A DNA stretch of 37,354 bases from Roseofilum halophilum BLCC-M91. GTDB lineage: Bacteria; Cyanobacteriota; Cyanobacteriia; Cyanobacteriales; Desertifilaceae. Below the pieces are notes generated by a model. The model did not search any database and was not told the DNA's origin. It saw only the letters and a list, made by a program, of their open reading frames with translations. Made by a program: the position numbers and the translations under genes. Positions within the stretch are counted from its first letter, which is position 1; the number at the start of each line of letters is the position of its first letter. The stretch is taken from the NCBI RefSeq assembly GCF_030068445.1, contig NZ_JAQPOK010000120.1, positions 1 through 37,354 of the forward strand, in the 5' to 3' direction. Below, in pieces: positions 23,211 to 25,592 of the stretch.

Positions 23211-23361
23211 CTGTACCGTATCCTAACGGGTTCAGCATACATAAATGGTGTCTCTTAAAAAGACGATGTGGGTTCGATTCCCACCATCCGCCCTTCATCT
23301 TGGCGGATGTGGCTCAATGGTAGAGCAACAACATATTGCTGAATTGACTTGTACGGTACAG
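23211..23361 (+). ncRNA. Y RNA-like unit 1 with a circularly permuted tRNA-like module
   Basis: The outer stem CTGTACCGTA (23211-23220) pairs perfectly with TACGGTACAG (23352-23361). The conserved internal loop follows: TCCTAAC on the 5' side and ACTTG (23347-23351) on the 3' side. The inner stem is TTCAGCA (23231-23237) with TGCTGAA (23337-23343). Inside, the tRNA parts come in permuted order. First is an anticodon-like arm (23249-23265, loop CTTAAAA), then a T arm GTGGG-TTCGATT-CCCAC (23268-23284) and CATCCGC (23285-23291). After an 11-base loop come GCGGATG (23303-23309) and a D arm GCTC-AATGGTA-GAGC (23312-23326). GCGGATG and CATCCGC form a perfect 7-bp acceptor stem. The loop resembles the Ro60-binding region of Y RNAs (5' UCCGA, 3' ACUUG), and known bacterial YrlA RNAs mimic tRNA, hence the call. 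Confidence 0.7.
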
Positions 23362-23376
23362 CCTTAAGGAATAGAT

Positions 23377-23510
23377 TCACACCGCGCCCTAACTCAAAAA
23401 GCTTACATATTAGCTCATTGGTAGAGCATTCGGCTGTTAACCGACTGGTAGCAGGTTCAAATCCTGTATATGTGTTCAAACACAATGCTTTTTTGACTTG
23501 CGCGGTGTGA
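23377..23510 (+). ncRNA. Y RNA-like unit 2 carrying a tRNA-Asn-derived module
   Basis: TCACACCGCG (23377-23386) pairs perfectly with CGCGGTGTGA (23501-23510). The internal loop is CCCTAAC (23387-23393) opposite ACTTG (23496-23500). The inner stem TCAAAAAGC (23394-23402) pairs with GCTTTTTTGA (23487-23496), allowing one bulged base. The enclosed module is a near-complete cloverleaf (23404-23474) in normal order. It starts 15 bases after unit 1 ends, so the two may be one transcript cut apart or two adjacent genes. Confidence 0.7.
23404..23474 (+). tRNA. tRNA-Asn(GTT)-like module inside Y RNA-like unit 2
   Basis: All four arms can be drawn. The acceptor is TACATAT/ATATGTG (one G-T pair). The D arm is GCTC-ATTGGTA-GAGC, and the anticodon loop is CTGTTAA on TTCGG/CCGAC with one mismatch. 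The variable region has five bases, and the T arm is GCAGG-TTCAAAT-CCTGT. The body is clearly tRNA-Asn-like. However, the acceptor is AT-rich, there is no CCA, and the module is clamped inside a longer stem, so I doubt that it is charged. A tRNA gene finder will probably report it. Confidence 0.5.
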
Positions 23511-23670
23511 CCTTTATTCCTACCCCTTTTATCGGGTTACAAAATACAAACTTTACCGATTAGGCGTAGGGTGGGCACTGCCAGCCCTACCAAATACTTC
23601 TCTCATCGATCAATCTTTCAATCTAGCTTTTCTGACCGGTTGAATCAATCTTTCTGGGTTCTGTAATAAA

Positions 23671-23800
23671 GTCATTTCGCGCCCTAACTCATCAAGCTTA
23701 CATACTCGCCAAATGGAAAAGGCACTTGATTTAGGCTCAAGCACATGCGGGTTCAAATCCCGTGTATGACCAACAGCTTTTTGGACTTGCGCGAAATGAC
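23671..23800 (+). ncRNA. Y RNA-like unit 3 carrying a tRNA-like module
   Basis: GTCATTTCGCG (23671-23681) pairs perfectly over 11 bp with CGCGAAATGAC (23790-23800). CCCTAAC (23682-23688) faces ACTTG (23785-23789) as in the other units, and AAGC/GCTT forms a short inner stem. A run CTTTTTTT follows the outer stem, so the stem plus T tract should also act as an intrinsic terminator that sets the 3' end. The enclosed cloverleaf is described separately. The 160-base gap before this unit contains another small repeat, GTAGGGTGGGCACTGCC (from 23566), also found at 27721. Confidence 0.7.
23699..23770 (+). tRNA. tRNA-like module inside Y RNA-like unit 3, anticodon position TAG
   Basis: The D arm GCC-AAATGGAAAA-GGC looks Gln-like. 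The anticodon arm CTTGA-TTTAGGC-TCAAG reads TAG, which would be Leu. The variable region has only five bases, against the long arm of real tRNA-Leu. The T arm is GCGGG-TTCAAAT-CCCGT. The acceptor TACATAC pairs with GTATG for five base pairs, and the outer two positions mismatch. The mixed identity and frayed acceptor argue against a working tRNA. Confidence 0.4.
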
Positions 23801-23849
23801 CTTTTTTTCTTAACTCTATGATTGAATGAGAATCATGTCCCCAAAATAA

Positions 23850-23884
23850 TTGTTAATTGTTAATTGTTAATTGTTAATTGTTAA
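23850..23884. repeat. Heptanucleotide tandem repeat (STRR), TTGTTAA x5
   Basis: Five exact copies of TTGTTAA end six bases before the outer stem of Y RNA-like unit 4. The AT-rich repeat may influence that unit's promoter. Confidence 0.9.
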
Positions 23885-23889
23885 TTACA

Positions 23890-24014
23890 ACCGCGCCCTA
23901 ACCCCGATCGCCTACATACTTCTCCACCAAATGAATCGGTGCGTACTTGGAGTTGTACGCTGCAAGCCTGGGCCGATATTAGCAGGCATAAACGGCGATC
24001 GCCACTTGCGCGGT
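23890..24014 (+). ncRNA. Y RNA-like unit 4 with a degenerate cloverleaf
   Basis: ACCGCG (23890-23895) pairs with CGCGGT (24009-24014). CCCTAAC (23896-23902) faces ACTTG (24004-24008). The inner stem CGATCGCC (23905-23912) pairs with GGCGATCG (23994-24001). The inside begins TACATAC like the other units and can form three hairpins: CACC/GGTG, GCGTAC/GTACGC and GCCTG/CAGGC. This is a cloverleaf shape without recognisable D or T loop sequences. The loop motif fits the other three units, while the module has drifted furthest from tRNA. Confidence 0.6.
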
Positions 24015-24020
24015 AAGCTT

Positions 24021-24102
24021 GCCCTCTCCCTAAATCCCTCTCCCACGGGAGAGGGACTTCTCTCCCCTTCTCCTGTGGGAGAAGGGGTTGGGGGATGAGG
24101 GC
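24021..24102. repeat. Compound palindromic repeat between the RNA cluster and the Ro-like gene
   Basis: Two perfect hairpins, CCCTCTCCC/GGGAGAGGG (24036-24055) and CCCCTTCTCC/GGAGAAGGGG (24064-24087), sit inside an outer pair GCCCTC/GAGGGC. This form is a widespread cyanobacterial intergenic palindrome. It may attenuate read-through from the RNA units into the protein gene. Confidence 0.7.
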
Positions 24103-24152
24103 TTTATACGAATTCTCTATAAAAGTTTGTCTTATATCCCTAGGAGAGAAAC

Positions 24153-25592
24153 ATGGTAAATGTAAAAGATGCAGAGCAAGATCTGCGTTTGGAGATGCTC
24201 AACTCCTTGCTCACCACTCCCCACCGGAAATTGCAAGAAGTTGCCGAACTCCATGACCTTTTAGTACAACTTGACCCGATTTTTTACGGTCACTTGGCAG
24301 TATGGTATCAGCACAATGGGGATGTGCGCGACCATAAGGAAGTGTTTATGGGTTCTTTGCTCACTAGCCCACTTCCCGAACACCGTAGCGCTGGCTTTGT
24401 GATGTTGCAACAGTTCCCCCCTTACCAAGTGGCGAGGATTGTGGACTTTATGAAGCAATTTCAAAATAAAGTGCCTCGGTGTGCGCGGACGGCAGTGACT
24501 CGCTATCTGCGCAAGCGGGAAGGAAACCCGAAACAGTTCGATCGCGCCGCTCTGCGAGGTCGCAAAGCGATGAAGCATCTGTATGCTACATTGCACATCA
24601 AGCCCAATGAACGGGCGAATGCGGTGCTGTTTAAGGATAATCCCCCAGAGGATAGTTTGGCGTTTGCCCTCAAGCAAGTGGCAAAAGCGCCGACTCCCGC
24701 AGAGCAAGCGCAACTGATTGTCAAGCATGGTATTCCCTATACCATTGCCATTGGTGCGGTTAAACAAGTTACACCGACGGTGTTGGTGGCGCTGATTCAT
24801 GCCATGTCGCCTCAAGAGGTGATTAATAACCTGAACTCCTTGAAACAACGGGGAGCGATGGAGCATCCGCAGGTGAAGGCGCTGATTGATGAGAAGCTCG
24901 AAGCGGCTCAAAAGGCGAATCGGGTTTCGGCACTGAAGGCGCAGGTGGCATCGAATGCGACAGAACTGGATGCGGAAACGGTGGCGAAATTGGAGGCGAT
25001 CGCCAACACCCAAGTGAAAAAGCGGGGCAACATTGTTAAACCGACGGCTTTGCTGGTGGATAAATCTGGTTCTATGCATCGCGCGATCGAAGTCGGTAAG
25101 CAGCTTGCTGCCTTGATTTCCGGCATTACCACGGCTGATTTGTTTGTCTATGCTTTTGATACCATGCCCTATGAAGTCAAAGCGCAAGGCAAGGAACTCA
25201 CGGACTGGGAAAAAGCCTTTAAGCACATTAACGCTGGGGGTGGAACCAGTATCGGCTGCGGTGTAGAAGCCATGCGGCGCAACCGTCAACGGGTAGAACA
25301 AATCATCCTGGTGACTGACGAAGGGGAAAATAGCCATCCTTATTTTGTGGATGCTTTAGACACCTATCGTCAAGCTCTAGAGATTCTCCCCAATGTAATC
25401 ATTGTGCGCGTGAACTCTAACTATGATTTCGTAGAAGCGCAGTTAAAGAAAAAGCAGTTTCCCGTAGAAACCTTTACGTTTAAGGGGGACTACTACTCTC
25501 TACCCAACTTAGTGCCTCTATTGTCTCGTCCCTCTCGTTTGGAGCTGTTGATGGAAATCCTGGAAACCGCTCTACCGGTGCGTCAAGACTAA
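24153..25592 (+). CDS. Ro60/Rsr-like protein: HEAT-like (TROVE) N-terminal part plus vWA domain
   Basis: Ro60 and its bacterial relative Rsr bind Y RNAs and misfolded RNAs and help exonucleases. The 479-residue protein has a helical-repeat N-terminal part (about 1-280). Within it, [20 protein letters not shown] resembles the TROVE segment in which Ro proteins read ALL.EMP..ALLRNL. A vWA domain follows (about 300-470) with the metal site DKSGSM, GGGTSIG and LVTDEGEN all intact. No signal peptide is present. The four Y RNA-like units lie directly upstream on the same strand, which strongly supports the call. TAGGAGAGAAAC precedes the ATG, and a strong terminator follows. I place it near Ro60 by pattern memory rather than alignment. 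Confidence 0.72.

Follow-up and report, generated by a model that had tools for sequence, protein, structure and literature searches.

Y RNAs with tRNA-like parts are already known, as exemplified by YrlA. In a previous report, YrlA is described as resembling the D, T and acceptor arms of tRNA (PMC8394870). Here we analyzed a stretch of 37,354 nt from Roseofilum halophilum BLCC-M91 (contig NZ_JAQPOK010000120.1 of assembly GCF_030068445.1; hereafter the window), in which four Y-RNA-like units (23211-24014, + strand) lie upstream of a gene for a 479-aa Ro60-like protein. Taken as a whole, the region is probably a Ro ribonucleoprotein locus with modular Y RNAs, the heads of which would serve as adaptors or decoys for the translation machinery.

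Organization of the Locus

All units follow the same order, namely an outer stem, YCC[U/C]AA, an inner stem, TACAYA, an insert forming the head, and then ACUUG. The motifs YCCTAAC, TACATA and ACTTG, which the original prediction had placed in the four units, are all present on the + strand. The outer stems of units 1 to 4 comprise 11, 11, 12 and 7 bp, counting G-T pairs and a single closing pair that involves the G of ACTTG. Unit 1 (23211..23361) is a Y-like RNA with a circularly permuted tRNA head on the YrlA plan, consisting of an anticodon-like arm (23250-23264), a T arm (23268-23284), a closed acceptor hairpin (23286-23308) and a D arm (23312-23326). Units 2 (23377..23510) and 3 (23671..23800) carry normal-order heads, the former like tRNA-Asn(GUU) without CCA (23404-23475) and the latter like tRNA-Leu(UAG) (23699-23771); a terminator-like T run follows the outer stem of unit 3. 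Unit 4 (23890..24014), which belongs to class E, has a pseudoknot-like head. A cloverleaf-like module had been noted in all four units; the heads are in fact one permuted tRNA, two normal-order tRNAs and, in unit 4, a module that is not a cloverleaf. The Ro60-like protein is encoded on the + strand at 24153..25592, with helical repeats at about residues 11-291 followed by a vWA domain with a metal ion-dependent adhesion site (MIDAS).

Covariation of the Scaffold

Relatives of the four units were collected with a unit finder. Its first version gave 86 units from 48 fetched regions and the window; with the genome_contigs loci added, 324 units (287 distinct) were obtained, and a relaxed version gave 427 (380 distinct, including five overlapping pairs). 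Loci L111-L223 and part of L061-L108 were selected by the scaffold itself. By head, the 380 distinct units comprise 150 normal-order tRNAs (class B), 77 permuted tRNAs, 26 units of class C, 23 of class D and 11 of class E, 32 with short inserts, 50 others, and 11 without the TACA element, the last group now holding at least three CRISPR-repeat false positives of the finder (L118). The 50 others include decayed tRNAs, at least one further class-E unit and two class-D units. In loci L061-L090, which were chosen by the protein, together with the window and a few others, we counted 30 units of class B, 19 of class A, 10 short, nine of class E, eight other, three of class D, two of class C and two without TACA. 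Of 366 units, 354 have ACTTG as their 3' motif and 12 have ACTCG, the finder having demanded ACTYG; CCCTAAC serves as the 5' motif of 240.

Covariation was assessed in 48 class-B units, that is, unit 3 of the window and 47 picked from 126 eligible ones. In the 37-pair structure, 95.0% of the cells are paired, compared with 83.5% in shuffles and 32-52% in slid alignments. Changes on both sides occur at 22 of the 37 pairs (15.6 in shuffles), double-change cells number 225 (59.6 in shuffles), and on every measure the observed value was reached by none of 500 shuffles, so that the covariation predicted for homologues is borne out. The pairing of the outer stem is partly a criterion of the finder, and the variety of pair types is not; therefore, the changes of pair type, together with the co-occurrence in genomes described below, are the more independent evidence. 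The scaffold motif was found at 42 places in 22 of 386 genomes of the phylum, and a backwards-pattern control gave one match in each of three genomes. A chance motif is ruled out by this control, the covariation and the genome co-occurrence. From the known motif, we infer that the strands of the Y-RNA-type terminal stem (YCC[U/C]AA and ACUUG) would bind Ro.

In 31.5% of 365 units, four or more consecutive T come after the outer stem, compared with 7.5% of random sites and 11.6% of nearby ones, and a -10-like hexamer (at least five matches) lies 5' of 15.6% of the units, compared with 5.2% and 7.2%, respectively. The outer stem may double as a terminator in part of the units.

The Ro60-like Protein

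A predicted model of the protein (predicted local distance difference test, pLDDT, 77.7; predicted TM-score, pTM, 0.70) was compared with the PDB. The 13 top matches are all Ro60/TROVE structures (TMq 0.55-0.68), among them human Ro60, Deinococcus Rsr and a Ro from a Thermus phage, and the best are 1yvp_A (E 3.7e-11) and 2nvo (E 5.1e-11). The MIDAS residues D303, S305, S307, T365 and D389 are invariant in 45 aligned Ro-like sequences. When the structure was predicted and compared as had been proposed, the expected helical-repeat body joined to a vWA domain was found, with a fold matching Ro60. Meanwhile, a Pfam scan of the window protein did not match TROVE and gave weak vWA matches and one chance-level match only; vWA_Ro60 was matched in one of the 45 sequences (E 0.0025). 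Since the fold matches Ro60 while the Pfam and PDB profile searches fail, the protein is Ro60-like by predicted fold, in a divergent clade beyond the sequence methods used. The gene had originally been called Ro60/Rsr-like, which stands as far as the predicted fold is concerned and has to be qualified in that the clade is invisible to Pfam TROVE.

Linkage of the Units to the Ro-like Gene

Because the other loci are partly scaffold-selected, co-occurrence was taken solely from a survey of 195 genomes of the order, in which the Ro-like protein was counted at E<=1e-20 and the cut-offs for class C (>=125 bits) and class D (>100 bits) were set by us. The protein is present in 69 of these genomes. 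A scaffold-bearing covariance model built from class D (R1) finds matches in 67 of the 69 and in none of the 126 gene-negative genomes. Of the two misses, one (G002) has a contig that stops 216 bases before the start of the Ro-like gene, and the other (G036) lies on a 5.4-kb contig and nevertheless has a class-E unit.

At loci with a full-length Ro-like gene, the units upstream in the same orientation number 189, with nine downstream and none on the opposite strand, some contigs being counted twice; the relaxed finder adds a single TACA-less unit on the strand opposite to the gene. The median upstream distance is 1533 nt for class D, 1507 nt for permuted tRNAs and 800 nt for normal-order tRNAs. 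Class E and short inserts stand immediately 5' of the gene (medians 145 and 103 nt), with 15 of 20 short-insert units (class F) and seven of eight class-E units within 300 nt upstream, and class C lies downstream in 13 of 14 cases.

At least 113 scaffold matches were found in genome_contigs. Among the 80 matches listed, 77 are labelled cyanobacteria, with Nostoc, Okeania, Oscillatoria, Fischerella, others and metagenome-assembled genomes as carriers, and the remaining three come from Candidatus Parabeggiatoa, Thiomargarita and Ktedonosporobacter. A comparable gene-unit pair is thus present in another phylum: Ktedonosporobacter rubrisoli (Chloroflexota) has a permuted-tRNA unit and, 262 nt away in the same orientation, a Ro-like gene (606.7 bits). 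Candidatus Parabeggiatoa has a lone class-D unit, and a search of its genome found no Ro-like protein of this clade. A phage origin was rejected on the ground that the exact scaffold pattern has no match in viral_contigs, although Ro-like folds do occur among viral proteins. In Myxacorys californica (L106, 2158-5644), 25 Rfam tRNA matches and three to related models form a row directly 5' of a Y unit (6060) and the Ro-like gene. According to PMC10272220, a tRNA operon on an Anabaena megaplasmid is co-regulated with rtcB under translational stress.

tRNA Heads

ARAGORN calls tRNA-Asn(GTT) at 23404-23475 in unit 2 and tRNA-Leu(TAG) at 23699-23771 in unit 3, and the Rfam tRNA scores are 59.2 and 41.7 bits, respectively. 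Positions 8-61 of the unit 2 head are 87% identical to the tRNA-Asn of the same genome (G000:C160:36315-36368). Over the whole length the identity is 53/72, and the acceptor stem differs, being built from the constant TACATA. Because the body resembles tRNA-Asn while the acceptor stem uses TACATA, the head of unit 2 suggests a tRNA captured into the Y scaffold. Units 2 and 3 lack an encoded CCA after the tRNA, the acceptor continuing into the scaffold and leaving no free end. The anticodon loops of class B have U33 in 132 of 140 units and a purine at position 37 in 138 of 140, over 32 anticodons, figures that the preferences of ARAGORN bias upward.

In unit 1, ARAGORN finds a tRNA once the halves are rotated. 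The order of T arm, closed acceptor hairpin and D arm is confined to unit 1 within the window and occurs in 77 of 116 candidates overall, compared with none of 116 with shuffled inserts (45,420 rotations in the shuffled control, 88,911 for the real units) and none of 10 class-C, -D and -E units of up to 165 nt. As separate observations, several tRNA-like heads contain an extra GC-rich insert in the T loop, as if mobile repeats land there (L085 10127, L069 10076, L145 5555, L172 3331), and two related units (L106 5051, + strand; L117 786, - strand) share another head of no recognized likeness.

23S rRNA Heads

The sarcin-ricin loop sequence AGUACGAGAGGA is found in all but one of 25 aligned class-C units, together with a GTPase-associated centre. 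Of 14 class-C units compared by blastn, 13 fall on 23S rRNA within E. coli positions 1036-1119. In the Rfam large-subunit (LSU) rRNA search, one unit scores 54.5 bits (cut-off 50; positions 1077-1160) and another 49.3 bits, just under. Conversely, when the class-C covariance model was run on three rRNA operons, its six best matches comprised the GTPase-associated centre of each operon (E 2.3e-11 to 3e-11), followed by the sarcin-ricin loop of each (E 0.017 to 0.04; E. coli 2649-2671). Judged by sequence, the class-C head is a mimic of the GTPase-associated centre fold plus the sarcin-ricin loop. It seems unlike plain rRNA debris because 14 of 42 pairs are doubly changed, a count given without shuffle comparison. 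Full-length class C occurs in 55 of the 195 genomes surveyed, 54 of which have the Ro-like gene; in the genome studied here it is on another contig than the window (G000:C36:5300-5512, 173.7 bits). A full-length class-C unit of 162.5 bits (L274, G022:C32 40480-40694) was also observed in a genome for which the search for a Ro-like gene of this clade was negative.

In class D, 12 of 16 units compared match 23S positions 1909-1941, and double changes occur in 23 of 44 pairs, likewise without shuffle comparison. Class D is present in 24 of the 195 genomes, all with the Ro-like gene. We read its head as a permuted form of helices 69-71, with the loop of helix 69 opened; the 5' half of this apparent mimic is well supported, and the 3' half comes mainly from pairing. 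Direct alignment puts the 3' piece of 10 of 21 units at 23S position 1896, mostly no better than shuffles, and one further unit lacks the piece. Searching rRNA linearly with the class-D model yielded nothing (best E 0.36); this would be expected of a permuted head and therefore does not confirm the permutation. The class alignments omit one interrupted class-C unit, four class-D units with long insertions or too much divergence, and one class-E unit. Long insertions interrupt one class-D unit (L068 5483, - strand) and one class-C unit (L107 6426, - strand), with the remainder of the head kept. In addition, a 90-nt unit outside the named classes (L154 3292, + strand) matches cyanobacterial 23S by blastn at E. 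coli 1382-1411 (E 0.002), perhaps as an rRNA head or by chance.

The Head of Unit 4 and Neighboring Features

In unit 4, CUCC at 23922-23925 can pair with the loop GGAG at 23949-23952, and a second hairpin lies at 23966-23987. Class E as a whole combines a pair of hairpins with a possible pseudoknot, the two strands of which covary by eye, without scoring by a tool (CUCC/GGAG, UACC/GGUA, CUCA/UGAG, ACUC/GGGU). It stands directly 5' of the Ro-like gene in seven of the eight loci holding both. A search of 60 genomes with model R3 gave nine strong matches (E<=8.6e-10), each located 5' of a Ro-like gene at a distance of about 80 nt to 4.6 kb, and the next match was at E 0.004. An rRNA origin of unit 4 was rejected, the best R3 match on rRNA being not significant (E 0.4).

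Elsewhere in the window, a short tandem repeat of TTGTTAA (23850-23886) precedes unit 4 on the 5' side. About 3 kb downstream of the Ro-like gene, an open reading frame at 28655-29113 has a weak PIN-domain match (PF13470, E 1.1e-4, under the cut-off); the PIN fold is frequent among toxin nucleases. The same contig encodes an 873-aa VIT and vWA protein at 32511-35132.

Proposed Function and Alternatives

The identification of the locus, for which the scaffold, the covariation, the gene linkage and the head identities come from sequence and the Ro fold from prediction, is in our judgment highly likely to be right. In particular, the covariation in homologues and the predicted fold matching Ro60 bear out the view of a multi-RNA Ro ribonucleoprotein-type locus. 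Several observations weigh against this interpretation. The Ro assignment rests on a predicted model at 15-18% identity; Pfam TROVE was not matched at E<=0.1 in any of the 45 Ro-like sequences, in which 16 Pfam families were matched, and a profile of these sequences found none of the PDB sequences searched at E<=0.01. Unit 1 matches YrlA (RF02553) at 29.4 bits, under the cut-off of 69 and as the one listed match of its genome at E<=0.01; all YrlA matches are under that cut-off (those cited range from 29.4 to 40.1 bits), with none of 16 genomes above it. Comparably weak matches occur in nine of 14 control genomes as well, and for this reason they were not used as proof. In addition, the anticodon triplet differs from one close relative to another, with GTT, CTT and ATT seen within a single unit type. 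The LSU search, given three genomes, found neither the class-C unit of the R. halophilum genome nor any 23S gene. For the 3' half of the helix 69-71 mimic, sequence alone does not reach significance in most units, and no counterpart is known for the unit 4 head, which has no significant rRNA match either.

As to function, a constant handle (outer stem, YCC[U/C]AA, inner stem and ACUUG) would be gripped by the Ro-like ring protein, whereas the exchangeable and separately conserved heads mostly copy an RNA of translation, be it a permuted tRNA, a complete tRNA in normal order with its anticodon arm, or, in relatives and on another contig of this genome, pieces of 23S rRNA from the factor-binding and A-site region. 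The head would then capture proteins that recognize tRNA or the factor site of the ribosome, either tethering Ro to them or titrating them. This adaptor mechanism, in which transcription, Ro binding and partner capture are all presumed, is a plausible proposal with somewhat less than even chances. The original prediction had the diverse modules routing Ro to tRNA-binding partners; the modules are indeed diverse, and the restriction to tRNA-binding partners is too narrow because related units, one of them in this genome, bear 23S rRNA mimics. The tRNA, the GTPase centre with the sarcin-ricin loop, and helices 69-71 are neighbors on the ribosome around the entering tRNA and its elongation factor. 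More speculatively, then, the Ro-linked RNAs could represent a dismantled ribosomal A site, shown piecewise on a common Ro handle as a kit for intercepting or sensing translation factors, stress factors or ribosome-targeting toxins, an idea that may well prove wrong.

We favor adaptors over two other functions of the heads. The Ro-bound copies might be decoys or sensors for RNA-cleaving toxins, acting as competitive inhibitors or damage sensors and not as tethers. Nuclease toxins are known to attack tRNA anticodon arms and the sarcin-ricin loop; helices 69-71 and the GTPase centre are less obvious targets. The conservation of the class-B anticodon loops, even with its upward bias, and the weak PIN-domain open reading frame downstream are consistent with decoys. 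Das et al. propose that the tRNA-like domain of YrlA may competitively inhibit an anticodon nuclease; YrlA fragments were not detected in the same paper, so YrlA was uncut there (PMC7790460). On the evidence as a whole, decoys seem rather unlikely. A machine devoted to degradation only, with PNPase or a similar exonuclease linked to Ro through the heads and with the likeness to tRNA or rRNA serving substrate selection or gating, has a precedent in Deinococcus (PMC8394870, PMC8058203). It would also suit the position of the class F and class E units just upstream of the gene, as might be expected of a basic tether; however, a single exonuclease leaves several conserved, unrelated heads, some with rRNA motifs, unexplained, and we regard this explanation as quite improbable.

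An ordinary array of tRNA genes or tRNA remnants beside a vWA gene, with no Y RNA function, would account for the ARAGORN and Rfam calls in units 2 and 3, and one relative does have a long tRNA array adjoining the locus. Such an array is disfavored by the missing CCA, by the acceptor stem drawn from the constant TACATA, by the enclosure of the tRNAs in one covarying scaffold that elsewhere carries rRNA heads, and by the separate tRNA-Asn gene of the genome; we consider it extremely improbable.

The locus and its relatives amount to a natural swap experiment, with one handle and many heads, several of which copy different well-understood binding sites, so that the question of partners becomes directly testable head by head. 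The findings point to a Ro60-like clade overlooked by sequence searches, and to RNAs that copy the factor-binding centre of the ribosome outside the ribosome. If true, Y RNAs mimicking the ribosomal centre would constitute a new category of noncoding RNA.

Comparison with Known Systems

As far as we are aware, normal-order tRNAs with anticodon arms in a Y scaffold, arrays of mixed heads, a Ro60-like clade missed by Pfam, and 23S mimicry are apparently new. No report of rRNA-mimicking Y RNAs was found in the open-licence literature; the main subscription papers lie outside that search, and an earlier mention is possible. Compared with YrlA (RF02553) and bacterial Rsr, the units are alike in the terminal stem with a 3' ACUUG (Rfam consensus), in the adjoining Ro gene and, for unit 1 and 76 other units, in the order of T arm, closed acceptor hairpin and D arm. 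They are unlike YrlA in that they often have an anticodon arm, many have normal-order tRNA heads, some are rRNA mimics, and their scores are under the Rfam cut-off. With the vertebrate Y RNAs and Ro60 they share a stem with an internal loop, the 3' ACUUG and a 5' YCC-AA segment; however, the vertebrate heads are unrelated to those described here and are not known to mimic tRNA or rRNA. The Deinococcus Rsr-Y RNA-PNPase complex (RYPER) has the same Ro60 fold (2nvo, E 5.1e-11) and the same plan of a handle plus an effector head (PMC8394870). In contrast to RYPER, there are up to several RNAs per locus here, and the protein is unrecognized by sequence. In mRNA leaders that regulate ribosomal proteins, RNA elements copy rRNA binding sites; the rRNA mimicry is alike, whereas the mimic described here is the head of a Ro-linked RNA unit.

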